DNA from: Owenia fusiformis
Taxonomy: Eukaryota > Annelida > Polychaeta > Sabellida > Oweniidae
Direction: 5' to 3'
DNA length: 64,000 nucleotides
Assembly: GCA_903813345.2 (NCBI GenBank)
Contig: CAIIXF020000011.1
Location: forward strand, 935,001 to 999,000
Shown here: in pieces, positions 1,314-25,900 of the stretch
Layout of the letters: each line of letters starts with the position of its first letter
How positions within the stretch are numbered: position 1 is the first letter of the stretch
The notes under the pieces: generated by a model
The model's database searches: none
Told to the model about the DNA's origin: nothing
Seen by the model: only the letters and a program-made list of their open reading frames with translations
Program-made: the position numbers and the translations under genes

Positions 1314-4300
1314 GTGAGCATGACTTTGTTTACAGATCTTCGAAGACTGATTTTCTCCCGGGGATTTTTTGCATTTGGCACAAGAATCAGGATCGCAGGG
1401 AAGGGGTCTAAGTACATCATTTGATAGATAATTGGTAAAGCAATACAAAAATATACATGCCGATGCGATCAGAGCCATACAAGTCGAGAGTTTTAGAAGG
1501 AATTTTTCTGAAAAATTCGTAAAAAAAACATGATTTGCCTGCCCCAAAAAATTTCGTTATCTTGAAGTTTTACGATATTTACTTAGATCTACCTATTTTT
1601 TATAAAACTTGTTGATCGATAGTTGCTTTATAATATCCTGTGCTGTTATATTTCAACACTGTATATGTCACCATTTGTGTTGCGTGTACGTTTCCCATGA
1701 GTTGATAAATATGTTGTCAATTTGTTTCCTAGCTTTATACTGTTACATAGTATGATTACAGGCCTGGAAATATGACAAAATATCCCATTTACGTATAATT
1801 GAAATGTAATTTTAAATGTACTCTGTATTTAACATGTATTTACTTGGTCTTAAAAAGTTTATCAAAACTAACAAGCCATTGCGCGCCTTGTTACGAGCCT
1901 TGTAAGGTCAAGTACGTGGGTCGAAAGTTACGGGTTCTTAGAGGCATCGATATGACAGGTCACTACAGACTACAGACCTCGGAAATAGCGAGCTATTACG
2001 AGTTCTAACGGGCCTTGTATTCCAAGCCAGTATGATGTTCAGAATTTACTAGCAATTAGGGGACTCACTACGAGACCCATACAAGGTTGTACAGAGGCCA
2101 TTGAGGCAACAGGGCTCGTACAACCTAGTACGGGCCCTGACGTAATTTGCCTGTGTAGTCACATAATCAAAGTCACATAATAACATAGTCACATATTGAC
2201 CTAGTCACATAATCACATAGTCATCTCGTCACATAATCACATCGTCATCTAGTCACATAATCATATAGTCGCATAGTCACATAATCAGATAATCATCTAG
2301 TCACATAATCACATAGTCACATACACTGTAATCACATGATCACATAGTCACATAGTCACGTAATCACATGATCACATAGTCACATAGTAACATAGTCACA
2401 TAATCACATAGTCACATAAGCACATAATCACATGATCACATAGTCACATATGTCTATCGTTTCAGGTGAAACAGCCAGGATGAATCTATTTCAATCTCTC
2501 ACAAGTGCAATGGACATAGCCCTTGAAAAAGACCCTTCTGCTGTTATATTTGGTGAAGATGTCGCCTTTGGTGGAGTATTCAGATGCACAGTCGGTCTTA
2601 AAGATAAATACGGTTGGTATATTGTTTATATCATTTGCATTTAATTTTGAATCCAACCTGCATAAAGAGTTAAAAGATGATAGTATGCACAGTTGAGTCT
2701 ATTATAGCCTAAGCTCCCGTCATCAGATGTGAAGATTTTAGATTAGTTTCGAGGCAAATGTATCACAAGTACCATTCTCATATTTTTATTTTTTATTTAT
2801 CATTGCTCTTCAAACATAGGTACATTTTACAGGATAGTTTTGTCATTATTCACACCACCATCGTTCAATCATTTTCATAATGAAAATATATGTTTTATTT
2901 AAAATATATGTTTTATTTATGTCTCTCACACCTCCTCTCCAAGGTTTAGGGACCATAATCACAATAAAATAAAAATGAAACATGATCAAGTAATTAAATT
3001 GGCTTAGTAGCAGAGTCAAGATAACCACTCTCGCTTGGCTCTGGGTTCGATTCCTGGTACAGACAAGTTTGTTAATGCGTTATGTAATTCTGGGTGTTTG
3101 ACTGAGTGGTCCATGACTCATATAAAAAAACTGTGGTGTGTGCTTGTATGTCTTTGTAACGGTGCACACATAAGAACACAGGGATCCTCCAAGGAGGGGT
3201 TTCTGGCTCTTTTTTCGAGTGTAAAATACAGAATATACCAATGAGGTATTGCTCGCCAATTATGGCGGTAACAAAGATACAATAAAATGCAATTACAAAA
3301 TATGTTAGAGAATCACTTTTTGTTTTCTCCAGGAAAAGATCGGGTTTTTAACACTCCGCTAAGTGAGCAGGGAATCGTGGGATTTGGTATAGGTGTCGCT
3401 GCTGCAGGTGCAACCGCCATAGCTGAAATTCAATTCGCTGATTATATTTATCCCGCATTCGATCAGGTAATAATTTTGATATTTGTTAATGAAAACACAG
3501 AACGAAATTCTGTGCTAAGGGCTGATGTGAAAAAGTCAGTCCACCCCAGTGGGGATCGAACCCACAACCCTTGCTTACAAGCCGATTGCTCTACCACTGA
3601 GCTATAGGACCGACTGGCTCCTTATTTAAATCTCAGAGTTGTAGATGCAAAAGTTTACCACTAAATGTATTTGCTTCATGGGAGACTGGATAAACAGAAG
3701 AAAATTGAAGAACAATAGTTGTTCGAAAGTCATAGCTATGCTGCAATCTGCAACTTTTTCAATGATTGGTGTTAAACATTCAGGGTTTGCACCAAATTCT
3801 AACAACTTCCATTAGGAAAAATGTCTATGATTGTATTGAAAATGTATACTAGTGATGCTATCATAACAAGTCTATGGGAGATCACTTTATAAATCATGTC
3901 GTATAATGGCTCCAGTAGATTATCCTTTAAAAAAAAAACTCCTAGTTTAGATTCTCCGGATATATTTTTGACATTTACATATTTGGTGTCTGACATCTGT
4001 AACAAATGGCAGGTTGTGTAGGCTATTAGCTGTTTTTTGCAAAATCATGCAGTTTTTCACCATTCTGACCATTTTTGTGTGATTTTTGGCGCAAATTTGC
4101 CAAAGTGAACCCCCTAAAATATTTTTGAAAAGTGAAGCCCCCTTTGGAAATTCTGTCAAAATGACTGTGACATTTTGCATGTTAATGCCTTGTAATAGTT
4201 TAATTTCTATTTTATGTTTTCAGATAGTAAATGAAGCGTCAAAGTTTCGCTACAGGTCAGGGAATTTATTCAATGCAGGAAGATTAACGATACGAGCGCC

Positions 4301-7300
4301 ATGCGGGGCAGTAGGTCATGGCGCCCTCTATCATTCACAGAGTCCAGAAGCTTATTTCGCACATACTCCCGGTATTAAGGTATGTACACTGTACATGAAT
4401 ATCATAATCACTAACATGTTTTTTAATTTTAATCACTTGAATACTGGGAAACTTGTTGCAGATTTTTCTGTAAAATCACTGTTTGTTTGGCAAAATGTAT
4501 CTGATTTTAACAATTAGATCATGTTTTGCCTCCTCCATTCTTAGGCACGTATGAAGACAAATATTGAAATATAGAACAATTTTAGTAAAAATATAAATGT
4601 GAATAATCAAGAATACATGTTGACATTATTGTCAAGCTTTTGGGTTTAGGGCCTAGGGAGCATTTCAAATGATCAATGACTGAAAATTAGCTGTATTTGA
4701 ACAGTTTATCTGTAACCCCCTCCCTCCCCCCTTCATAAATGTGTTTGAAAAATGTTAATGTGTGTCATTGCGTTAAAGTCACTCTATAACTTTGTAATAC
4801 AGTAAATTTTTTACAATTACTCCAATCTGTATTATTGTACAGTATCAGCATGAGATTATCTCTTGTATTGTATCTCATTGTAGAATCCTGACTTTTATAT
4901 CCAACAAAATTTGCTCAAATAAAATTCCAGGAACGATGTTGGAAAGCTAACTTTTAAGGCTAAAAACATCCTCCCCCATAACTGGTTAAATACAGTTAAT
5001 TTACTGTCAAATAAAATTCCAGGAACGATGTCGGAAAGCTAACTTTTAATGCTGAAAACATCCTCCCCAATAACTGTTAAAATTCAGTTAAGTTTCCATC
5101 ATCAAACTTTTGTTATGCTCCCTTAATAGCTCAAGGGACATTCAATTTTATCTCGTCTTTCTGTTAACCTATAGTACCAGAGTTCTCTAAAATAGTAATG
5201 TTATTTGTGTTTTTCCAGGTGGTCATACCAAGGGGTCCTATTCAAGCAAAGGGGCTCCTTCTCAGCTGTATAAGAGATGATAACCCATGTATATACTTTG
5301 AACCTAAAATCCTATACAGATCTGCAGTAGAACAAGTCCCAACAGGCGACTACATGTTACCTTTATCAAAAGCAGAAGTGTTGGTGGAAGGTACATTAGT
5401 TTAGATTAATAAATAAGCCAAAAGTTCTTCTGAAATCCAAAAAACGGCTGTACAAGCAGGTGCCAACTGGTCTCATAATTGTTATCTCTAGCCACATTTG
5501 AATCGTAATTTTCTCCAAAGTATCCGTAATTAAGAATTCAAACTTTTTTTCAATTGGGATATGAAATGAAATATCTTGCGGAAACGTTACCTTGTTGGTT
5601 CTGTAAATCACTGAATATTTTCAGAAAAAAATAATAAGTATATGCACCATAAATAGATGGCAGCATTGCAGTATATGTAATTGAAATGAACACTTAGATT
5701 GCAGAGGAGGAATGATCGTTCCCACAATTTTTTACAGCTAGCTGAAATAATTAGGCTCTTTTGATTGGTCAGAGTGGCAGTGTTTGCTTTTTTAGACAAA
5801 ATTCAGAAGTTTAAGTTATATAAAAGCCAAATCAAGCTCTTGTTGATCCAAATATAGAATAAGGTGCTTGAATTTCCTGATATTAACTTCTTAATCCGAA
5901 GTCTATTTTTCAGGTTCCGATCTGACACTTGTCGGTTGGGGTACGCAAGTCCATGTGCTTAGGGAAGTGGGAAAAATGGCTGAAGAGAAGTTGAATATAT
6001 CTTGTGAAGTAATAGATCTTGTTACGATCCTGCCCTGGGATTCAGATACCATCAATGAGGTAACTCTTTGTAAGATGTTAAAAGGGCTTGAGAGACTACC
6101 CTTTGTAAGACCCTGTAAGACATTGCCTCACTCTCAAGTAGGCATAGAGATTAGAGACAGATAACAAAGAGAGATGAGTGTGAAGGCATTGAATGTATCT
6201 GACAAAAACAAAATAGTTCAAATATCATTTATTTTTTTCTACATCTCAGTTTTTGTATACATTTTTATATTTGATCAGATAACCTATTTTTCAGAAAATA
6301 GAATCAAAATTCTGAAACATTGGAGTCATTTTGGAACAATTTTTAAATTTTTTTTTAACTCAACTAACCAATCAGATAACCTCTGGAGGTTCATCTTTGT
6401 AGAGAAATAGGGTTCTCTATGAATTCTGGGAAATTTCTTTCTCTGTAATGAGAATTTTTGAAAGTTGGTATTATTGCTACATGATGTATCTTTATTTTTC
6501 AGTCCGTCTCAAAAACTGGTCGACTTTTAATCGCTCACGAAGCTCCATTGACGGGAGGATTTGCTGCGGAAATTGCTGCATCTGTACAGGTGGGCTTTTT
6601 GGCTTTGATAAGTCTTAGTTTCAATGCTATTATTAATATCAATCAATATAAAGAAATATATCATGCTATTTATCACCCATGGACATTTTAGGTCAAGATA
6701 TGAGGGATATCTACTGCATATAAGCATATCTACTGTACATCTGTTATAGGATATCCTTTGATTTCGAGGAATATCATTTTTTTTATCTACGAAGTGATAT
6801 TGATGCACGAGAGAGCAAAGCGAACAAGTCCTTGCAACCAATTAAAAACCTGTTTGCACCCAATTAAAAATCTGTTTGCACTGACATAAATAAGAAAATT
6901 TTATTAATATTTGTATATTTTGACCAATTTTGATCAGAATTGTAAAAAATCTCTGATCTATACCCAATTGTTTGAAACAAATATTTTGAGTTGTTGTTTC
7001 CTCATTACAAATATTTATCTTATAATTATTGGTTTCTGTTTATGAAGATAAACAATGCTTTTTATCACACCATCGGTGGGATATAGTCGTCATACTGGTC
7101 GTGGTCGTGATCGTGGTCGTGATCGTCCCGCTTTTTGTCATCGCAGTTTAAGGAAAACTGCTCATCAGATTTTCTCCAAATTCACAGAGATGATAGAGCA
7201 TATGAAGTACAAGAGCTGATTAACTTTTGGGTGGCCATCTTGTTTTCTGGTGGCCATTTTGAAGGTTTTTCGAAAAATCTTGTCATAGCCATTTCAGGAA

Positions 7301-9689
7301 AACAGCTCATTGGATTTCCTTCAAATTTACACAAATGATAGAGGATATCAAGTACAAGTGCTGATTAACTTTTGGGCGGCCATCTTGTTTTCTGGTGGCC
7401 ATTTTGAAGGTTTTTTGAAAAATCTTGTCATCGCCGTTTCAGGAAAACCGCTCATCGGATTTCCTTCAAATTTACACACATGAAAGAGGATATCAAGTAC
7501 TAGAGCTGATTAACTTTGTGGCAGCCATCTTCTTTTCTGGTGGCCATTTGAAGTTTTCTCGAAAAAATCTTGTCATTGCCAATTTAGGAAAACCGCTCAT
7601 CGGATTTCCTTCAAATTCGCACAGATGATAGAGGATATCAAGTACTAGCGTTGATTAACTTTGGGCGGCTATCTTGTTTTCTGGTGGCCATTTTTAAGGT
7701 TTTTCGAAAAATCTTGTCATTGCCATTTCAGGAAAACTGCTCATCGGATTTCCTGTACATGATAGGGGATATCAAGTTCTAGAACTTATTAAATTTTGGG
7801 TGGCCATTTTGTTTTCTGGCGGCCATTTTGAAGGTTTTTCAATAAATCGCCATTTCAAGAAAACCCCTCATCAGATTTGCTCCAAATTCCCACACATGAT
7901 AGAGGATATCAAGAACTAGAGCTGATTAACTTTTGGGTGGCCATCTTGTTTTCTGGTGGCCACTTTGAAGGTTTTTTTTGATAAATCTTGTCATCACCAT
8001 TTTAGAAAAAAACGCTTATTGGATTTCCTTCAAATTCGCACACATGATAGGGGCTATCAAGTTCTACACCTATTTGATGGTGTGATCTCGTTCACGTCCT
8101 GTGCCTTGTTTTAAAAAGTATGGTTTTTCGTCAATATGTATAACACAATTTTTATACAATACAATTATTTATCAGTAACTGTCTAGTATAAGAGACAAAT
8201 CATTCTGTGAACAGAATTGATAGCATTCCATTTGGTCATACATGCTATAGATATAAAAAAATTGCTTATCAAGTAGGCGCTGAAAGCTTTTAAACCAAAT
8301 AGGAAATGAAAGTGTATTCATTTTTAAAGATTCTAATTTCTACTGGGGTCAACATGACTTTTAGTCTAGACACATTAAGAAGTAATTTCTCCTTGACAAT
8401 ACGAACCAATTGTTATATTTTGAACAATGTTAGTAATTAGAGATATGTCTCTGTAATATTGATTTTGTTAAAGATGAAGTAGGCCAACGAGACACATTTT
8501 TGGGATATGTGCAGCTGATTTTCTTAGCTACTTTTGTGTGTTAACTCAAAGGACGATAGCAGTGAAAATATGTTTTATTTTTCTGAATTTTTTTCATTTT
8601 TTGGTAGTGAGTGAAAGATCATATGGAGATTACAGCTGCGGTCAATGCTGTGGTCAAATTGACCCCAAGGTTTTAAGTTCAGCCAGTCTATTAAGTGAAT
8701 TTGCCTGTGATGACTGAAGCTTAGGTCAAACACTGGCCTGGCCTGGTCTATGTTTTGTTTGGCTATTTATTTCATAGAATGCAGCGGATGTTATTTGTTT
8801 TAACATTGTTATGAATTTTTATTTTCAGAATGAATGTTTCCTAAACCTTGAAGCCCCCATACAATATGTATGTGGATACGACACTCCCTTCCCCCATATT
8901 TATGATACATTCTACATGTTCAACATTGTTATACATCTTCATTTTCAGAATGAATGTTTCCTTAACCAAGAAGCCCCAATACAACGTGTATGCGGATACG
9001 ACACTCCCTTCCCCCATATTTATGAGCCATTTTACAAGTTCAACATTGTTATTCATCTTCATTTTCAGAATGAATGTTTCCTTAACCTTGAAGCCCCCAT
9101 ACAACGTGTATGTGGATACGACACTCCCTTCCCCCATATTTATGAGCCATTCTACATGTTCAACATTGTTATACATCTTCATTTTCAGAATGAATGTTTC
9201 CTAAACCTTGAAGCCCCCATACAACGTGTATGCGGATACGACACTCCCTTCCCCCATATTTATGATCCATTCTACAAGTTCAACATTGTTATACACCTTC
9301 ATTTTCAGAATGAATGTTTCCTAAACCTTGAAGCCCCAATACAATGTGTATGCGGATACGACACTCCCTTCCCCCATATTTATGATCCATTCTACAAGTT
9401 CAACATTGTTATTCATCTTCATTTTCAGAATGAATGTTTCCTTAACCTTGAAGCCCCTATACAACGTGTATGTGGATACGACACTCCCTTCCCCCATATT
9501 TATGAGCCTTTCTACAAGTTCAACATTGTTATTCATCTTCATTTTCAGAATGAATGTTTCCTTAACCTTGAAGCCCCTATACAACGTGTATGTGGATACG
9601 ACACTCCCTTCCCCCATATTTATGAGCCATTCTACATGCCAGACAAATGGAGGTGCTTCGACGCAGTGAAGAAAGTGATGAATTATTAA
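1163..9689 (+). CDS. BCKDHB: Branched-chain 2-oxoacid dehydrogenase E1 beta subunit, 8 exons
   Basis: Spliced CDS join(1163-1313, 2466-2612, 3333-3466, 4224-4379, 5219-5390, 5914-6059, 6503-6589, 9549-9689) is 1134 nt, 377 residues, close to the roughly 390 of vertebrate E1 beta. With E1 alpha the protein forms the thiamine-diphosphate decarboxylase that commits leucine, isoleucine and valine 2-oxoacids to oxidation in the mitochondrial matrix. Residues 1-50 ([10 protein letters not shown]..., Arg at 12, 20 and 34, few acids at first) look like a targeting peptide. From MNLFQS (56) on, the match to the family is near continuous. Visible landmarks are FGEDVAFGG (79-87), the cofactor glutamate in TPLSEQG (Glu111), [17 protein letters not shown] with the active-site His181, FEPKILYR (223-230), [13 protein letters not shown] (314-326) and [15 protein letters not shown] (346-360). 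All introns are GT-AG and all phases match. The ATG at 1163 is the only start that gives a leader of normal size. Exon 8 has six extra upstream acceptors (see 8829-9548), so longer isoforms are possible. No frameshift or missing key residue seen. Confidence 0.96.
1880..2158. mobile_element. GC-richer MITE-like fragment in BCKDHB intron 1
   Basis: Contains several variants of acgagcc, cctcgtac and tacgggcc and ends in gtaatttgcctgtgtagt. The same vocabulary and a near-identical end (gtaatttgcctttgt) occur in the element at 27917-28173, so both belong to one family. No matching left terminus was found here. Confidence 0.5.
2156..2450. repeat. 10-bp minisatellite in BCKDHB intron 1
   Basis: About 29 copies of tcacatagtc and variants (tcacataatc, tcatctagtc, tcacatgatc). 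The array ends only about 15 bp before the exon 2 acceptor, so any branch point for intron 1 lies within or next to it. Confidence 0.95.
2466..2612 (+). CDS. BCKDHB: BCKDHB exon 2
   Basis: Encodes Gly51 to Gly100: [17 protein letters not shown]... through [22 protein letters not shown]. Acceptor is cgtttcag, phase 1. Donor phase 1 is forced by the next exon (GKDRVF) and falls at g|gttggt, an unusual donor without the purine at +3. Confidence 0.95.
2998..3240 (+). mobile_element. tRNA-derived SINE-like element in BCKDHB intron 2
   Basis: Has an A-box-like tggcttagtag (3000-3010) and a perfect B-box ggttcgattcc (3044-3054) at tRNA-like spacing. A body without tRNA similarity follows. The arrangement is typical of a tRNA-derived SINE head. 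No target-site duplication was defined. Confidence 0.5.
3333..3466 (+). CDS. BCKDHB: BCKDHB exon 3 (cofactor glutamate)
   Basis: Encodes [20 protein letters not shown]... to [15 protein letters not shown]. It holds Glu111, equivalent to the mature Glu76 of human E1 beta that contacts the thiamine aminopyrimidine ring. Acceptor ttctccag, donor cag|gtaata, ends in phase 0. Confidence 0.96.
3541..3611 (-). pseudogene. tRNA-Thr(UGU)-like relic in BCKDHB intron 3
   Basis: The reverse complement reads as a tRNA: D-arm GCTCAGTGGTAGAGC, anticodon loop CTTGTAA (anticodon TGT at 3577-3579) and T-arm GGGTTCGATCCCC. The anticodon stem does not pair (ATCGG against GCAAG) and the acceptor stem has a mismatch and several G-T pairs. 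It is more likely a tRNA-derived repeat or pseudogene than a working tRNA gene. Confidence 0.6.
4010..4150 (-). mobile_element. Decayed copy of the 34-kb MITE family in BCKDHB intron 3
   Basis: The reverse complement shares aatggtgaaaa, ctgcatgatttt and the gaggggcttcacttt-like head with the element at 33961-34116. The ends are degraded. Confidence 0.5.
4224..4379 (+). CDS. BCKDHB: BCKDHB exon 4 (active-site histidine)
   Basis: Encodes [16 protein letters not shown]... to HTPGIK, 52 codons in phase 0. It carries His181 in LYHSQSPEA, equivalent to mature His146 of human E1 beta. Acceptor gttttcag, donor aag|gtatgt. Confidence 0.96.
4915..5094. repeat. 90-bp direct duplication in BCKDHB intron 4
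   Basis: Two adjacent copies starting tcaaataaaattccagg at 4915 and 5005, differing at scattered positions (for example gatgttgg versus gatgtcgg). Confidence 0.9.
5219..5390 (+). CDS. BCKDHB: BCKDHB exon 5
   Basis: Encodes [17 protein letters not shown]... to [10 protein letters not shown], including FEPKILYR at the end of the pyrimidine-binding domain. Acceptor tttttccag, donor gaag|gtacat, phase 1. Confidence 0.96.
5914..6059 (+). CDS. BCKDHB: BCKDHB exon 6 (C-terminal transketolase domain)
   Basis: Encodes (G)[18 protein letters not shown]... to [18 protein letters not shown], the start of the transketolase C-terminal domain. Acceptor tttttcag, donor gag|gtaact, phase 0. Confidence 0.96.
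6503..6589 (+). CDS. BCKDHB: BCKDHB exon 7
   Basis: 29 codons, [20 protein letters not shown]... ending ASVQ. Acceptor atttttcag, donor cag|gtgggc, phase 0. It must join an acceptor followed by codon Asn-Glu-Cys, of which there are seven (8829, 8949, 9069, 9189, 9309, 9429, 9549). Confidence 0.95.
7064..8086. mobile_element. Inverted-terminal element with seven 145-bp repeats in intron 7
   Basis: Bounded by perfect 11-bp inverted ends, atcacaccatc (7064-7074) and gatggtgtgat (8076-8086). The inside is a tandem array whose landmark ctcatcggattt recurs near 7161, 7306, 7451, 7596, 7740, 7867 and 8015. Spacing is 144-148 bp except one shortened 127-bp unit. Each unit also carries ggtggccatcttgttttctgg. 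The ORFs it contains are repeat translations, not genes. Confidence 0.75.
8829..9548 (+). repeat. Six extra in-frame copies of intron-7-end plus exon-8-start (120-bp unit)
   Basis: Period 120 bp, copies starting at the acceptors 8829, 8949, 9069, 9189, 9309 and 9429, followed by the terminal copy at 9549. Each unit is 90 bp of exon (30 residues, [20 protein letters not shown] then FPHIYEPFY and M or K) followed by 30 bp of intron end that reads [10 protein letters not shown] and finishes in ttcattttcag. The frame is open over all 287 codons to 9689. Copies differ slightly: QYV, QRV or QCV; DTF, EPF or DPF; final Met in copies 1, 3 and 7, Lys in the others. They are therefore not identical assembly stutters. 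Every copy has its own polypyrimidine tract and a possible branch point (ttcaac). Whether the upstream copies are exon or intron in mRNA cannot be decided from DNA. Confidence 0.95.
9549..9689 (+). CDS. BCKDHB: BCKDHB exon 8, canonical terminal copy
   Basis: Last of seven repeated copies and the only one that runs on into the normal C-terminus, [17 protein letters not shown] and TAA at 9687-9689. The acceptor is cattttcag|aatgaatg. Using this acceptor gives the family-length protein of 377 residues. Using the first (8829) would give 617. Confidence 0.93.
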
Positions 9690-9708
9690 ATATTACAAAT
9701 CAAGAAAG
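9690..9708 (+). other. BCKDHB 3'UTR start with a possible 3'UTR splice donor
   Basis: Nineteen bases after the stop codon the sequence reads aaag|gtgagt (donor GT at 9709-9710), a consensus splice donor. If unused, the nearest polyadenylation-like signals seen are ATTAAA at 10084 and AATAAA at 11008 and 11083. If used, a possible partner is the acceptor at 26476-26477. Confidence 0.4.
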
Positions 9709-9807
9709 GTGAGTTTGTTTCACAGAAAACAGTTGTTTATCAACAATTTTTGTTAAGGTGGTTAGCTAGATCTGATACTCTATTTAATAATTGTTGAAAA
9801 GGTTAAC

Positions 9808-9925
9808 ATGTGCCATAGCAACCTAATTTTCACATGATGTGCCATAGCAACCTCCTTTTCATACAATGTACCATAGCAACCTAATTTTCACACAATGTTC
9901 CATAGCAACCTAATTTTCACACAAA
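9808..9925. repeat. 30-bp tandem repeat, 4 copies
   Basis: Repeats of ccatagcaacctaattttca with spacers such as cacaatgt, just downstream of BCKDHB. Confidence 0.9.
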
Positions 9926-10338
9926 TGACACATGACTTAGTTTGTCAACTTACTTGACAATAATCAATTTCTTGGTTGATCAATTGAAATACTCCTTAAC
10001 AATGAAGCAAATCACTTTCTATTCCTCTTTATTGAATTGAATTGAATTGAATATTCATCAGCTGTGAGGGAGGTTGCACTAGGATTAAATTGATTGAAAA
10101 AATGAGAAACGTATTCTACTACTTGCGTGATAATTGAATTTTTTCATTTTTCAAAGCAATTGGCGATTACGGTTAATTTTTTAAAAACACTCAATTACAT
10201 GCATAATTAGGTTTTAATCTTTAAAAAGAGGAGGTGAGGTATTACTGTCAGCTTAACAGTTTGTTGGTAAGCCACAATGTTTCAAGATAAACCTCTGTTG
10301 ATAATGTATTGATTTGCAATTTTAGTGATATTACTAGG

Positions 10339-10805
10339 TACAGTAGAAATTTTGTAAATGAAATGCTTTTGGTGCCACAAAAAGTGCTCCACTTGTGAGG
10401 TGTTTCACTTACAGAGGTTCATTAACTTGGAGTCAACGGGCCATAAGACTTTAAAAATCCCTTCCACGTGTGAGGTGTTCCACTTACAAAGGTTCATTAA
10501 CTTGGAGTCAAAGGGCCATAAGACTTTAAAAATCTGTTCCACTTGTGAGCTGTTCCACTTACAGAGGTTCATTAACTTGGAGTCAAAGGCCACCCGACTT
10601 AAAATATCTGTTCCACTTGTGAGGTGTTCCACTAACAGAGGTAAAAGAGCCACAGGACTTTAAAAATCTGTTTCACTTGTGAGCTGTTCCACTTCCAGAG
10701 GTTCATTAATTTGGAGTCAAAGGGCCACGGGACTTTAAACATCTGTTCCACTTTGGTGGTGTTCCACTTACAGAGGTGTTTCACTTAGCAGTTTCTACTA
10801 TTGTA
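10339..10805. mobile_element. MITE-like element with 77-bp internal repeats
   Basis: Starts tacagtagaaattttgtaa and ends cagtttctactattgta, weakly inverted and related to the acagtaaaacctgt family. Inside, five to six units of 60-78 bp begin ttccacttgtgaggtgttcc and contain ttcattaacttggagtcaa. ORFs across it are repeat translations. Confidence 0.65.
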
Positions 10806-11698
10806 TTGTATTGTATATTTATTTACCTCTAATTAATAGAGAGTTACAATAGTTTAAATACATTAAAGTGTAATATAAATGCAACTACTGTATATTGAAA
10901 CCTCCAGCTGCAGTAGTTTTGGGCATGCTGGGTTGATTACAAACTGGCAATTGCAATTTTAGAATTTTCAGTTACAATAGGATTCAAAGCAATTATTTTT
11001 CTTGAATAATAAATATTATGAGTAGATAAAGTTGTAAATAATTGTAGTTGTAATAATTCTATTTACTCCGATAATAATTGTGAATAAAAACTGTCACAAA
11101 TGGAATTTCAGTCAAGTTTGTTAAAATTGGCTTTCTGTTATCATCAAAGTTTATTATTAACGGTAATTAAAACATAGTTAAAGAAAAATATAATTCTCAT
11201 GAATATGGTGGCATTAACTGACATTTACTGACATCTTACTGACATCACTAAAGGTTGCACTTGACTGGATACAAACCAAGATTTTATAGTCTAATGTCAA
11301 TGCCCTTAGATACTGTCAATAGATGGCGAAGAATTCATTGGGTTTAATTATACAAGGGTCGATCCAGATATTCTGATAAAAATGCTCTCATTTCTTTATT
11401 TTTGGAAGTTATTACTTGTAATTTGGACAGACAAAAGATAATTTGTATACTTTAACATGTAAAAATTACCTAGAATTCTCCAAAGATATATTTCAATGAA
11501 ATGAGGCAAAGCCTCGTTTGGTTGAATAAATGAGGAATAACAAGATAGAGAACCTTGTACCCAGTAGAAAAAGGGGAGCAAACACTTTATTTTTTAAGTC
11601 CAGTTCATTGTTCTCCAAATTGTGCAGGGACTGCTAAACAAAAAATTGATTTGCCAGAGCCTTATGGAGTTATGAGTCCTTTAGCCATCTTTAACTAA

Positions 11699-11963
11699 CT
11701 GTCAGACTGGGTCAGCATACTTATGCCTTGGTCACATATGCTCCGATCCATCGGCCGGCGCCCGGCCAATTGAGTGTTTTATTCAATATTGTATTCAATT
11801 TTGAACAAAATACTCAATCGGCCAGGCGCCGTAGTGAAAATTGGAGCAAATGTGACCAAGGCATTACTGCGTTGTGTTCGGGCTTGACGTTGACCTCAAT
11901 GCATTTTCTAGTGGCTGTACAGTCGAAGCCACGCAGTAAGGATGCAGCATCAGTCTGACGGAC
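11699..11963. mobile_element. Outer palindromic MITE interrupted by a second MITE
   Basis: Left arm cagactgggtcagcatac and right arm (as reverse complement) cagactgatgctgcatcc are similar. The match continues through ttactgcgt once the nested element at 11724-11863 and one TTA are removed. Confidence 0.75.
11724..11863. mobile_element. 140-bp MITE inserted at TTA
   Basis: Ends are TGCCTTGGTCACA and its exact inverse, flanked on both sides by TTA (11721-11723 and 11864-11866). Internal arms ggccggcgcccggcc, aattgagtgttttatt and their near-inverses extend the palindrome. A 3-bp TTA duplication is what PIF/Harbinger-type transposition leaves, so that class is inferred. Confidence 0.85.
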
Positions 11964-13253
11964 CCTTACTTATTGTGAGAATGGCAATCCTGAGGCTTAT
12001 TGACACCTTGACTTATTATTTTTACCCTGAGAATCACCACTAAGCAGTTCAATACTACACTCTGAGTACATCGAATGATTTAAGGAGTTTGATACAGAAA
12101 ATATACTCACCAGGCCTCAACTGTTGCTTTTTGGCTTTTTGATGTATACTGTATGTAGATATAATTATTATTATTGCAGTATTGTTCCTTATTTAAAAGA
12201 AGTTATTTTACTAACTCAAAATCTTCTATATTTTAAGAGTATAGATTAATCCCTTCAACATTTGCAAAGGGTAGCACTGTTATTGAAAGCAACAATATTA
12301 AAGATGTCATATGACGTAAATGATGTCAAGTTGGCAGTTCGTTGAACTTGTACTTGGAGATTATCCGATGACATATTGACAGCCTGTCATTCAACTAATT
12401 GTGGTCTAGCGAAAGCAGAGATGAAATAAGTCCAGACTTCTTTATTGGCTTACAACAAGCGAGCTATCTCCGACTTGTCCATCCTTCGTTCTGTCCTTAC
12501 TTTGTGTGTCCTTTCCTTCGATCATTAACATTTTTTTTCATTTAAAAGTTTATTGCAATGATTCAAAACTGGTTTGCAAATGAGAAGATTTAACATTGAT
12601 CGGTTGAGTAAATGCTTCTGAGTAGTCCAGTAGACTCAACCAAACATGCATATTACATTTCAACTAATGTTTTGAAGAAAAGAAAAATACATTTGAAATT
12701 TAATTTTTAGACACTTAGCATTTCACTGTCTCAAAGTCGATCATTAACATGAAAACTTTAATTCATGATTAAGTCAGTGCCCATATGCATTTTTTTATGA
12801 GTTACATATGATTAGTTTCAACTTCTTATTGTGTCTTCTTTCTGACAAATCAGCATTAAACACCATAAATACTCACCGTCCAAAATGTTCTATTTATTGG
12901 GTCAAAAAATGGCCATTCATTCCCCTGCAGCTAACAAATGTTGAACATAAGCTGCTATGGCGATTTCAGAGGTGTATCAGTCATCTGTGAAATAGTCATC
13001 AATTCTTGTAATTAGTACTATTTTATGTCTGGATTCTGGATGACCTCGTTTCTCACAATATGTCACATATCGTACGTACATGTACATGTATCTACAAAAG
13101 TCATTGACATCTACAGTTATAGTGTACCACTAAATAGAATGTCTATGGTACCTAAAAATACTGTTCTATTTTCTCATATTGTTTTGAATCAATGGTTAAC
13201 TAAATAGAATATCCATGGTACCTCAAGATAGTTTTCTGAAATCGTTTTGAATT

Positions 13254-13973
13254 AATGGTTTACTAGTTGTTGCAGTGTTCTAATTTTGAGGTGTTCCACT
13301 ATGAAGGCGTTACATTTTGGAGGTATTCTATTGGAAGTGTTTCCATTTGGAGGTATTCCACTTTCCAAATGAAATGTCCCACTTACAACGGTGTTCCACT
13401 TTGGAGGTGTTGCACTATGGAGGTGTTCCACTTTGGAGGTGTTCCACTTTGGAGGTGTTCCACTTTGGAGGTGTTCCACTTTTGTGGGATTTTACTTCCA
13501 AGGTGTTCCACTTTGGAGGTGTTCCACTTTGGAGGTGTTCCACTTTGGAGGTGTTCCACTATGGAGGTGTTCCACTTTGGAGGTGTTCCACTTTTGTGGG
13601 ATTTTACTTCCAAGGTGTTCCACTTTGGAGGTGTTCCACTTTTGTGGGATTTTACTTCCAAGGTGTTCCACTTTTGAGGTGTTCCACTTTGGAGGTGTTC
13701 CACTATGGAGGTATTCCACTTTGGAGGTGTTCCACTTTGGAGGTGTTCCACTTTTGTGGGATTTTACTTCCAAGGTGTTCCACTTTGGAGGTGTTCCACT
13801 TTGGAGGTGTTCCACTTTTGTGGGATTTTACTTCCAAGGTGTTCTACTTTGGTGGGGTTCCACTATGGAGGTCTCTCCACATTTGGTGGTTTTCCACTTG
13901 TTTGGTGTTTTGGTGGGACTTCACTTTGGAGTAAGTCCACTTACAGAGGTGTTCCATTTGACAGGTTTTACTG
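13254..13973. repeat. 17-bp minisatellite with higher-order units, ending in a MITE terminus
   Basis: About 40 copies of ggaggtgttccacttt-like units. A longer variant containing tgtgggattttacttccaa is interspersed at about 13483, 13594, 13645, 13754 and 13819. The array closes with gttccatttgacaggttttactg, the acaggttttactg terminus shared with the elements at 22.7-25.9, 43.7 and 63.9 kb. The long overlapping ORFs on both strands come from the repeat. Confidence 0.92.
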
Positions 13974-13999
13974 CTCGTTTATTACTATGAACTTAATTG

Positions 14000-15420
14000 T
14001 TAGAATATAATGTCACTATAATCAAATTCTCAATCTTTTACCATGGCCTAATTAAAAGCATATAATATGACTATTATCAGAATTAGGATCTGGTAATTAC
14101 CTTTTGAGACTATCATTATATACAATGTCATCTGAATGTGAAACCTTGATATGAATTGATATGGCTTTGCAATTGTCTTTTGAAGTTCACCATTCATTAA
14201 AGGTCATTTACCCTGTACTCACAAAGTCACATGGGAATTTTATCAGCATGTGCCAGTTTTACTATTTTGATATCATTCATTCAAAAATTAGAGTGTTATT
14301 GTGCTGATGGTAATCACTCTGGTATTTTTTGACATTTTTTTATACTGTTGATTAAGATTTTTGTCTTTTTTTAAATATTGAAATCTAGCTGTAGTTTAAT
14401 TTTTATGCTTTATTCACTTAATTGTTGACTAATATGTCATTGTTCTGACGTCAGAGTGTTATAAAAGTCATCTATATTTTTCAATTCTGCATTTATAGAT
14501 GTCACTGTAGTAAAATACTCCATTAATTAAGGGAAAGCTGAACCATTATCAATGTGTGGTAGAGACCATTGCAAAAGTCAGTATGGGATATTTAAATATT
14601 TTAAAAGTTAGTGGGTACAAATAAACAGTCTGGGAATATGGATTATTTGTGTCACCCGCTTATTGTTAAATGCATATAGCTTGATAAATAAACAAATAAA
14701 TGAAAGTACCAATAATATAGATAAACACTTTTTAAAAACATTAAACAATGGAGATGTAATAGTAATAAAATACATGATTAATGCATTTGTACATGATTAA
14801 TTTAGAATTGTTTCCATCAATCTATTGCTATTTTACAATGCTCATAAATCATATACTCTTTGTCTAGACAAACCCATATATTGTTATCTAGTTTCGACAA
14901 ATAATACAATTGTATTAAAAATGTAGTTCCAGTTATTGGCACCTTGCAATTAGATATATGTTTAACAATAATAATATTAATATGTTTGATATTACCCCTT
15001 GTCCAAATTTTGTCTTTTTACAAAAAAAATACATTATACTTTTTTTTTTTCATTTTGACAATTCTGAAATTAAGTTGGTGGGTGACTGGGTGCAAACCTT
15101 CATAAATAGTTACCGTATATATAAAAATATGTTCCGAGAGTAAGAATTAGTATGCAGTGTATTGTTTATTTAAGTGAACAAATACTTATCCAGTAGTGGC
15201 CTGAAATATCAAATACTTATCAGTTGTAGAAACTCCCAATTTTGTTTTAGCAACGCCTAAAATTGTTATATTCAAATATTTCATAAAAGTGAGATTGAGA
15301 GATGTATGCAAATACCTTTTAACAAAAAAGTCAAAATTTCAAAAAAACTTGAAGAATCTTCTTCAATTGATTGTCATGAATAAAAGAGGGGTGATCAATA
15401 AGTAATGGGAGCTTTTTTAC
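14000..15420. other. No gene or clear repeat seen
   Basis: AT-rich intergenic DNA with short meaningless ORFs and homopolymer runs. Confidence 0.6.
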
Positions 15421-15424
15421 ACTT

Positions 15425-15580
15425 GTCACTTGTCACAGCATTCACCTAAATTTTAAAAACAGGCTCATGCACTCACCTGAAAATTCATTTTCACCCACTC
15501 GATAATGAGAAAATCATAATTTGACTTGTTCTGATTTGGATTGTGAAAATGAAAATTTTGCACCCATTTGAGAAAATATT
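15425..15580 (+). repeat. Left partner of a dispersed inverted repeat
   Basis: Contains ttttaaaaacagg, cactcacctgaaaattca and gataatgagaaaatcat. The reverse complement of 17195-17345 gives matching strings in the same order. The two copies lie in opposite orientation, 1.6 kb apart. Confidence 0.65.
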
Positions 15581-16239
15581 GTTGGGAGAATGCTGCTTGT
15601 ATACACAGATACATTGTTCAGTAAGTTCAATGTATTTTTAAAAAAATTGAATGGAAAACAATATGTATAAACATGTACACAATAATGAGTACTATAATAT
15701 TTAACACATTTTCTATAAATCACACACTGGCATGTAACAGGTGGCATGCTTCTTGAGCCTATAGCCAAAAAGGAAACGACAAATTAGATAATTATTAATA
15801 GTGTGTTAAGAATTATAAATAAAAAATTGCTTATTTGATTTACAATCCTTACAAACTGATTTATTTATCAAAGACTAAATTAAGTAAGGTTAAAATATGA
15901 AGTTTACCTATATTCGTTAAAAATAAACACAACATCTAAAAGTGCATTTTTTCATTACCATTTAGATATTGATTGTAGGCTTTATGCGTACTAACAGTTT
16001 TCAAAATTATTTTGTCAGATTCCATACCAATTAGCACAGAATTAGAATTATTGATTTACGTGTTTGTTTAATAAAAGTTATTGATTTAAGGGATGGTGTC
16101 CAGCTACCAACACTCATGAAAGAATGTAGTAGGTTTTTAAAGGGGGATGGGTGGGGGTTGGGGATGGGTGTAATTGATGATTTCGTCAGCTATGAGTGTT
16201 GATTTTTTGTCACCACTTCAATTCATGACATATTGTTAG

Positions 16240-22931: not shown

Positions 22932-25900
22932 TATTTGACACTTTTCTCATTTGAACACTTCTCAATCTGAACACTTTTCCCCTGTCCCAATTTCGTAACT
23001 TACCATTGACTCATGCATCAGGACCCTTGAAATGTGAATATTTGCTTGACTCATACAACAGGACCCTTGAAATGTGAATATTTGCTTGACTCATGCATGA
23101 GGTCCCTTGAAATGTGAACATTTGCTTGACTCATACAACAGGACCCTTGAAATGTGAACATTTGCTTGACTCATGCATCAGGACCCTTGAAATTTGAATA
23201 TTTGCTTGACTTATGCATCAGGACCCTTGAAATATGAACGTTTGCTTGACTCATGCAGCAGGACCCTTGAAATGTGAACATTTGCTTGACTCATGCATCA
23301 GGACCCTTGAAATATGAACATTTGCTTGACTCATGCATCAGGACCCTTGAAATGTTAACATTTGCTTGACTCATGCATCAGGACCCTTGAAATGTGAACA
23401 TTTGCTTGACTCATGCATCAGGACTCTTCAAATGTGAACATTTGCTTGATTCATGCAACAGGACCCTTGAAATGTGAACATTTGCTTGACTCATACAACA
23501 GGACCCTTGAAATGTGAACATTTGCTTGACTCATGCAACAGGACCCTTGAAATGTGAACATTTGCTTGACTCATACAACAGGACCCTTGAAATGTGAACA
23601 TTTGCTTGACTCATGCAACAGGACCCTTGAAATGTGAACATTTGCTTGACTCATGCATCAGGACCCTTGAAATGTGAATATTTGCTTGACTCATGCAACA
23701 GGACCCTTGAAATGTGAACATTTGCTTGACTCATACAACAGGACCCTTGAAATGTGAACATTTGCTTGACTCATACAACAGGACCCTTGACATGTGAACA
23801 ATTGCTTGACTCATGCATCAGGACCCTTGAAATGTGAACATTTGCTTGACTCATGCATCAGGACCCTTAAAATGTGAACATTTGCTTGACTTATGCATCA
23901 GGACTCTTCAAATGTGAACATTTGCTTGACTCATGTATCAGGACTCTTCAAATGTAAACATTTGCTTGACTCATGCATCAGGACCCTTGAAATGTGAACA
24001 TTTGCTTGACTCGTGCATCAGGACCCTTGAAATGTGAACATTTGCTTGACTCATGCATCAGGACCCTTGAAATGTGAACATTTGCTTTACTCATGCATCA
24101 GGACCCTTGAAATGTGAACATTTGCTTGACTCGTGCATCAGGACCCTTGAAATATGAACATTTGCTTGACTCATGCATCAGGACCCTTGAAATGTGAACA
24201 TTTGCTTGACTCGTGCACCAGGACCTTTGAAATGTGAACATTTGCTTGACTCATGCATCAGGACCCTTGAAATGTGAACATTTGCTTGACTCATACAACA
24301 GGACCCTTGACATGTGAACAATTGCTTGACTCATGCATCAGGACCCTTGAAATGTGAACATTTGCTTGACTCATGCATCAGGACCATTAAAATGTGAACA
24401 TTTGCTTGACTTATGCATCAGGACTCTTCAAATGTGAACATTTGCTTGACTCATGCATCAGGACTCTTCAAATGTAAACATTTGCTTGACTCATGCATCA
24501 GGACCCTTGAAATGTGAACATTTGCTTGACTCGTGCATCAGGACCCTTGAAATGTGAACATTTGCTTGACTCATGCATCAGGACCCTTGAAATGTGAACA
24601 TTTGCTTGACTCATGCATCAGGACCCTTGAAATGTGAACATTTGCTTGACTCGTGCATCAGGACCCTTGAAATATGAACATTTGCTTGACTCATGCACCA
24701 GGACCTTTGAAATGTGAACATTTGCTTGACTCATGCATCAGGACCCTTGAAATGTGAACATTTGCTTGACTCGTGCATCAGGACCCTTGAAATGTGAATA
24801 TTTGCTTGACTCATGCAACAGGACCCTTGAAATGTGAACATTTGCTTGACTCATACAACAGGACCCTTGAAATGTGAACATTTGCTTGACTCATACAACA
24901 GGACCCTTGACATGTGAACAATTGCTTGACTCATGCATCAGGACCCTTGAAATGTGAACATTTGCTTGACTCATGCATCAGGACCCTTAAAATGTGAACA
25001 TTTGCTTGACTTATGCATCAGGACTCTTCAAATGTGAACATTTGCTTGACTCGTGCACCAGGACCTTTGAAATGTGAACATTTGCTTGACTCATGCATCA
25101 GGACCCTTGAAATGTGAACATTTGCTTGACTCATACAACAGGACCCTTGACATGTGAACAATTGCTTGACTCATGCATCAGGACCCTTGAAATGTGAACA
25201 TTTGCTTGACTCATGCATCAGGACCATTAAAATGTGAACATTTGCTTGACTTATGCATCAGGACTCTTCAAATGTGAACATTTGCTTGACTCATGCATCA
25301 GGACTCTTCAAATGTAAACATTTGCTTGACTCATGCATCAGGACCCTTGAAATGTGAACATTTGCTTGACTCGTGCATCAGGACCCTTGAAATGTGAACA
25401 TTTGCTTGACTCATGCATCAGGACCCTTGAAATGTGAACATTTGCTTGACTCATGCATCAGGACCCTTGAAATGTGAACATTTGCTTGACTCGTGCATCA
25501 GGACCCTTGAAATATGAACATTTGCTTGACTCATGCATCAGGACCCTTGACATGTGAACATTTGCTTGACTCATGCACCAGGACCTTTGAAATGTGAACA
25601 TTTGCTTGACTCATGCATCAGGACCCTTGAAATGTGAACATTTGCTTGACTCGTGCATCAGGACCCTTGAAATGTGAACATTTGCTTGACTCATGCATCA
25701 GGACCCTTGAAATGTGAACATTTGCTTGACTCATACAACAGGACCCTTGAAATGTGAACATTTGCTTGACTCATGCATCAGGACCCTTGGAATGTGAACA
25801 TTTGCTTGACTCATGCATCAGGACCCTTGAAATGTGAACATTTGCTTGACTCATGCATCAGGACCCTTGAAATGTGAACATTTGCTATGTGAACATTTTT

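Follow-up and report, generated by a model that had tools for sequence, protein, structure and literature searches.

Tandem arrays that repeat the 3' end of an intron together with the 5' part of the following exon are known from lancelets, where they have been called 'mirages'. In the globin gene BflGb6 such a unit measures 150-160 base pairs (bp) and occurs 6 times in one haplotype and 3 times in another, with 81-100% identity; the section of that paper that deals with these repeats describes a concerted evolution from which the cluster boundary is excluded, and reverse transcription-polymerase chain reaction is said there to suggest regular splicing (PMC3087553). According to the parts of PMC3902484 that concern lancelet genes, no aberrant mRNAs are reported to arise from the Adh and TnC mirages, and the boundary repeats of PGBD5, with units of 60 and 108 bp, vary in copy number between assemblies. 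Internal tandem repeats at exon-intron boundaries have also been reported in human duplicated genes, where, in the portion of that work that bears on them, they may cause new introns and most of the coding ones keep the frame (PMC2812944). Here we describe an array of this type in a 64-kb stretch of Owenia fusiformis DNA (the window, which is the whole stretch that was analysed), where the boundary between intron 7 and exon 8 of BCKDHB, the gene for E1-beta of branched-chain 2-oxoacid dehydrogenase, a central enzyme of amino-acid breakdown, stands seven times in tandem.

Like the BflGb6 mirage as described in PMC3087553, the BCKDHB array repeats an intron's 3' end together with the start of the exon that follows, but it lies in another gene, with a 120-bp unit and seven copies, and in a host genome that appears unlike that of the lancelet. 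Every one of its acceptors leads to an intact C-terminus, whereas the section of PMC3087553 on BflGb6 does not state that the units there are in frame. The duplication of splice sites by tandem repeats is shared with lancelet Adh3, troponin C and PGBD5, although, in the account given in the PGBD5 part of PMC3902484, splicing around the repeats is largely predicted and the repeated boundaries include 5' splice sites, unlike those of BCKDHB. The human boundary repeats occur in recent paralogues, and the relevant portion of PMC2812944 contains no seven-acceptor array like the present one. The original prediction knew of no described case in this family; as far as structure is concerned, the lancelet mirages contradict this. 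A search of the open-access literature for papers that combine minisatellite, splice site and tandem duplication with annelid found 0, and the BCKDHB array would possibly be the first mirage outside lancelets.

The array at the intron 7/exon 8 boundary

The array extends from 8799 to 9638 of the window as seven tandem copies, each joining 30 bp from the end of intron 7 to 90 bp from the start of exon 8 (Table 1). Tandem Repeats Finder, applied to the window, places it at 8802-9636 with a period of 120, 7.0 copies, 94% match, 0% indels and a score of 1453, which rules out an origin by chance. The acceptors fall at 8829 + 120n, all in phase 0 and all with the sequence CAG/AAT (the stroke marks the splice junction), so that in 7/7 copies the unit spans the boundary together with its splice signal. 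Joined in frame to exon 7, acceptors 1 through 7 give products of 617, 577, 537, 497, 457, 417 and 377 amino acids (aa), and each of the seven joins has a single stop, at its end, which is the common stop at 9687-9689. These joins reproduce the repeat coordinates, the seven phase-0 acceptors and the arithmetic of 377 to 617 aa on which the original prediction was built; the array and its frame are established. A further point of that prediction, that the repeat is in frame and stop-free, is true of 7/7 joins but carries little weight, and we rejected the absence of stops as evidence: sets subjected to 13 or 22 random substitutions were also stop-free in 42-71% of simulations.

The copies differ by substitution at 18 of the 120 columns. 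Pairwise, copies 2-7 are separated by 1-8 differences and copy 1 stands 10-16 differences from the others; copy 7, at the opposite edge, is not divergent and has a single difference from copy 3. Concerted evolution with one edge copy excluded is thus found here as it has been described for lancelet arrays, copy 1 being the excluded edge; we are very confident that the array is a mirage. Because 18 columns vary, the copies are not one copy multiplied by assembly error. The different substitutions between copies, a stretch free of any N and the many other arrays in this DNA (23.5% of the bases of the window, 10.3% of the pieces sampled elsewhere) together make it very improbable that the number of copies was created by the assembly. 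A genome search of the 498-Mb assembly located the array at one site.

The identity of the gene is clear from its shortest product. The 377-aa protein aligns with human BCKDHB (1dtw_B) over residues 38-377 with an E-value of 1.5e-186, a better match than that to human PDHB (1ni4_B; E-value 1.3e-53). When the genome was searched with the BCKDHB protein, 14 of 15 matches lay inside this gene, the exon matches being on contig C11; the fifteenth, on contig C5 with 42% identity over 60 residues, is a weaker relative. Among the best-scoring candidates, to which that search was confined, we saw neither a second BCKDHB locus nor a retrocopy that would reveal a spliced form.

Table 1. Features of BCKDHB and its array, in window coordinates.
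Feature	Position	Strand	Remarks
BCKDHB exons 1-7	1163-1313, 2466-2612, 3333-3466, 4224-4379, 5219-5390, 5914-6059, 6503-6589	+	GT-AG, in frame, 993 nt joined
Intron 7 up to first acceptor	6590-8828	+	2239 nt
Copy 1, acceptor 8829	8799-8918	+	R344Y (invariant residue lost), E357D, P358T; most divergent; branch-like TTTTAAC, found 26 nt upstream of this acceptor only
Copy 2, acceptor 8949	8919-9038	+	L338Q (invariant residue lost), M361K
Copy 3, acceptor 9069	9039-9158	+	Canonical residues
Copy 4, acceptor 9189	9159-9278	+	E357D, M361K
Copy 5, acceptor 9309	9279-9398	+	R344C (invariant residue lost), E357D, M361K
Copy 6, acceptor 9429	9399-9518	+	M361K alone
Copy 7, acceptor 9549	9519-9638	+	Canonical residues; adjoins unique C-terminal part
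Unique coding end	9639-9689	+	16 residues and stop
Short 3' untranslated part before probable donor of the 3' untranslated region	9690-9708	+	AAGGTGAGT motif, 9/9 donor consensus

Conserved residues and the probable donor beyond the stop

The protein encoded by each copy can be judged by the residues that its relatives keep, for which 69 bacterial homologues served as the reference (80 were retrieved and 11 set aside). All 69/69 carry R344 and L338, and E357 is E in 68/69; human BCKDHB has the matching letters at all three positions. Three of the six upstream copies break an invariant residue, R344 in copies 1 and 5 and L338 in copy 2, and copies 1, 4 and 5 have D in place of E357. The position of M361, which is K in copies 2, 4, 5 and 6, is variable among the homologues. 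None of these changes is found in copies 3 and 7, and copy 7 is unchanged at the positions fixed in relatives. This pattern of residues is established.

The acceptor can also be placed on a protein structure. In the predicted model of a bacterial homologue, the corresponding position splits a helix formed by residues 269-284, in a region where block means of the predicted local distance difference test (pLDDT) are 88 (271-280) and 92 (281-290), with 64.3 for the whole model; the extra modules would therefore sit inside a conserved domain. The counterpart of R344 lies in a short strand that follows the helix (290-293), where model confidence is low (block mean 47). A single-sequence AlphaFold2 fold of the 286-aa repeat part gave regularly spaced beta strands, interpreted as a beta-solenoid (mean pLDDT 76.7, predicted template modelling score 0.75), and was discounted as evidence. 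The Pfam Transketolase_C results contribute little to the interpretation: exon 8 taken from acceptor 7 alone scores 19 bits, under the cut-off of 25.9, and the seven-copy part scores 95 bits in 6 stretches, over it.

Exon 8 had been taken for the last exon of BCKDHB, which is doubtful in view of a perfect 5' splice site, AAG/GTGAGT, at 9708/9709, only 19 nt past the stop. The motif AAGGTGAGT at 9706-9714 has no other occurrence on either strand of the 64-kb window, and the more permissive pattern MAGGTRAGT is present 3 times on both strands, this site included, or 0.007 per 300 nt. All 9/9 consensus letters are matched here, compared with 6-8/9 at the seven other donors of the gene, and the presence of the donor motif is established. 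The nearest AATAAA downstream of the stop is at 11008 and the nearest ATTAAA at 10084. As read from the sequence, BCKDHB probably does not end with exon 8, and an intron would follow in the 3' untranslated region (3'UTR); if the donor is used, exon 8 is internal. Transcripts of human BCKDHB likewise vary by 3'UTR splicing. Nonsense-mediated decay follows a rule of about 50 nt, and with the stop only 19 nt before the junction it would not be expected. No 3'UTR exon or acceptor partner for the 9709 donor was found within 9721-16000, where a single match to YYYYYYNYAG occurs (12921).

Choice among the seven acceptors

We suggest that tandem duplication and unequal exchange, as in the lancelet mirages, expanded a minisatellite over the boundary between intron 7 and exon 8, and that the array would be tolerated because the 120-bp unit contains a complete acceptor and an integral number of codons. 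Exon 8 would then be defined from its downstream end, with the strong donor after the stop pairing with the nearest upstream acceptor. The acceptor at 9549 would be used in most cases to produce an exon of 160 nt and the usual E1-beta of 377 aa, and copies 1-6 would remain in the intron and leave with it. Measured to the 9709 donor, exon 8 would be 160 nt from acceptor 7 and 280, 400, 520, 640, 760 and 880 nt from acceptors 6 through 1. Exons 1-7 are 87-172 nt each; an exon of 160 nt fits this range and one of 880 nt does not. On these grounds, together with the residues kept by copy 7, the position of the acceptor within the conserved domain, the one locus found and the reports that splicing is undisturbed by lancelet mirages (PMC3087553, PMC3902484), we consider it reasonably probable that the last acceptor is the one mainly used; it is possible that some share of longer E1-beta forms accompanies the 377-aa form. 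The alternatives posed by the original prediction, that six sites are skipped or that modular E1-beta isoforms are made, were correctly framed, and the second is possible.

Several observations do not sit easily with use of the last acceptor. Judged by local signals, acceptor 1 looks best: the good branch-like motif TTTTAAC precedes it alone, and copies 2-7 carry TTCAAC at the same place. When copies 2-7 are searched for yUnAy, the match common to 6/6 is TTTAT at 47 nt upstream, with extra matches at 35 nt (acceptor 3) and 14 nt (acceptors 3, 6 and 7), and in 5/6 of these copies an AG intervenes between the 47-nt motif and the acceptor. The pyrimidine tracts of the seven array acceptors (12-14/17) are similar to those of the gene's other six (11-15), so that no local signal singles out the last acceptor. 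Copy 3 equals copy 7 in its canonical residues, and the place of one of these two clean copies at the end of the array is by itself weak evidence. The single indication of a 3'UTR intron, moreover, is the donor motif. A branch motif of this kind is not required in BCKDHB, however, because 3/6 of its other acceptors are also without a branch-like motif at 12-70 nt.

In a rival reading the spliceosome would take the first AG after the sole good branch site, and BCKDHB would mainly yield a 617-aa E1-beta that tolerates 240 extra residues. In classical experiments with duplicated acceptors, the upstream site was reportedly favoured in some constructs. Such an exon, on the other hand, would have 880 nt where exons 1-7 have 87-172 nt, copy 1 carries both R344Y and E357D, and the insertion would lie within a conserved domain, in a gene for which one locus was found. 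We regard predominant use of the first acceptor as quite unlikely.

The substitutions among copies 2-7 present a further difficulty for splicing at the last acceptor. Third codon positions account for 9/12 variable columns (p = 0.004), and by hand count 8/13 changes are synonymous where 2.5-3.3 are expected (simulated P 0.001-0.005), in a small sample and by a test devised after the data had been seen. Even in the intron-derived 30 bp of these copies, both variable sites are synonymous. This excess has the appearance of a coding constraint, on copies expected to be intronic, and could equally stem from unequal exchange with a functional last copy. Only 1/7 of the changes private to copy 1 is synonymous (hand count); with copy 1 included the count is 9/20, and in simulations with 22 changes at least 9 are synonymous with P 0.011-0.08.

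The synonymous excess also bears on mixed use of the acceptors, which would generate a ladder of E1-beta forms carrying between 0 and 6 additional modules of 40 residues; activity would be required of the shortest form only. The near identity of the acceptors, with their 12-14/17 pyrimidines and common CAG/AAT, the frame kept in 7/7 joins and the mostly synonymous differences among copies 2-7, including those in the intron-derived 30 bp, would all be consistent with such a ladder. Residues fixed in 69/69 homologues are nevertheless gone from copies 1, 2 and 5, the synonymous excess is explicable by exchange with the functional copy, rests on few changes tested after the fact and loses strength once copy 1 is included, and the lancelet Adh and TnC mirages are said, in the part of PMC3902484 that treats them, to give no aberrant mRNAs. 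We hold mixed use to be a minor possibility. A stronger form of the same idea, in which several in-frame acceptors are spliced as a length-variable cassette, selection preserves the coding sense of the 1-6 extra modules of E1-beta, and both copy number and ladder vary between individuals, seems to us unlikely. A 31-nt mini-intron between copies, where a GT stands before the intron-derived part, was rejected because excision of 31 nt from a 120-nt unit would not preserve the frame.

A minisatellite-rich setting and its implications

Tandem repeats are abundant around BCKDHB. After merging, 44 arrays cover 15,064 bp, or 23.5% of the window, compared with 10.3% in 13 pieces, 130 kb in all, taken from other parts of the genome. 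This sample is not random, with 10/13 pieces picked around gene matches and one piece, L095, contributing 6,113 of about 13,300 bp; its GC content is 35.3%, against about 41% in lancelets. The longest array of the window (23006-25886, a 40-bp unit repeated 72 times, 94% match) likewise has 0% indels, and the lack of indels in the BCKDHB array was for this reason not used as evidence. A second array nearly touches a splice boundary of the same gene: the TAGTCACA minisatellite at 2156-2450 ends 15 bp before the acceptor of exon 2. Among 16 aldehyde dehydrogenase exon matches (best 12 of 214 candidates), 0/16 lay less than 30 bp from a Tandem Repeats Finder array, a sample too small to give a frequency of mirages.

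Intron 7 also contains an element of about 1 kb (7064-8086), in which perfect inverted end repeats of 11 nt, ATCACACCATC and GATGGTGTGAT, flank a tandem array of 6.5 copies of a 145-bp unit. Among the best 40 of 293 candidates, a further 39 places in the genome carry its right end (8060 to about 8116), and the element resembles a non-autonomous DNA transposon that has dispersed and has tandem repeats at its core. A Pfam scan of six open reading frames of the window returned 1-3 weak matches below the cut-off for four and none for two, and a scan for transfer RNAs found 0. A search of the genome for COX1 likewise gave 0 matches.

Seven near-identical in-frame acceptors amount to a natural experiment in the choice of a 3' splice site by the spliceosome, in which the branch site and the first AG favour the first acceptor and exon definition favours the last. 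If an annelid gene carries such an array, mirages are no peculiarity of lancelets and may arise wherever minisatellites are dense. They would also constitute material for intron gain and for the lengthening of proteins.

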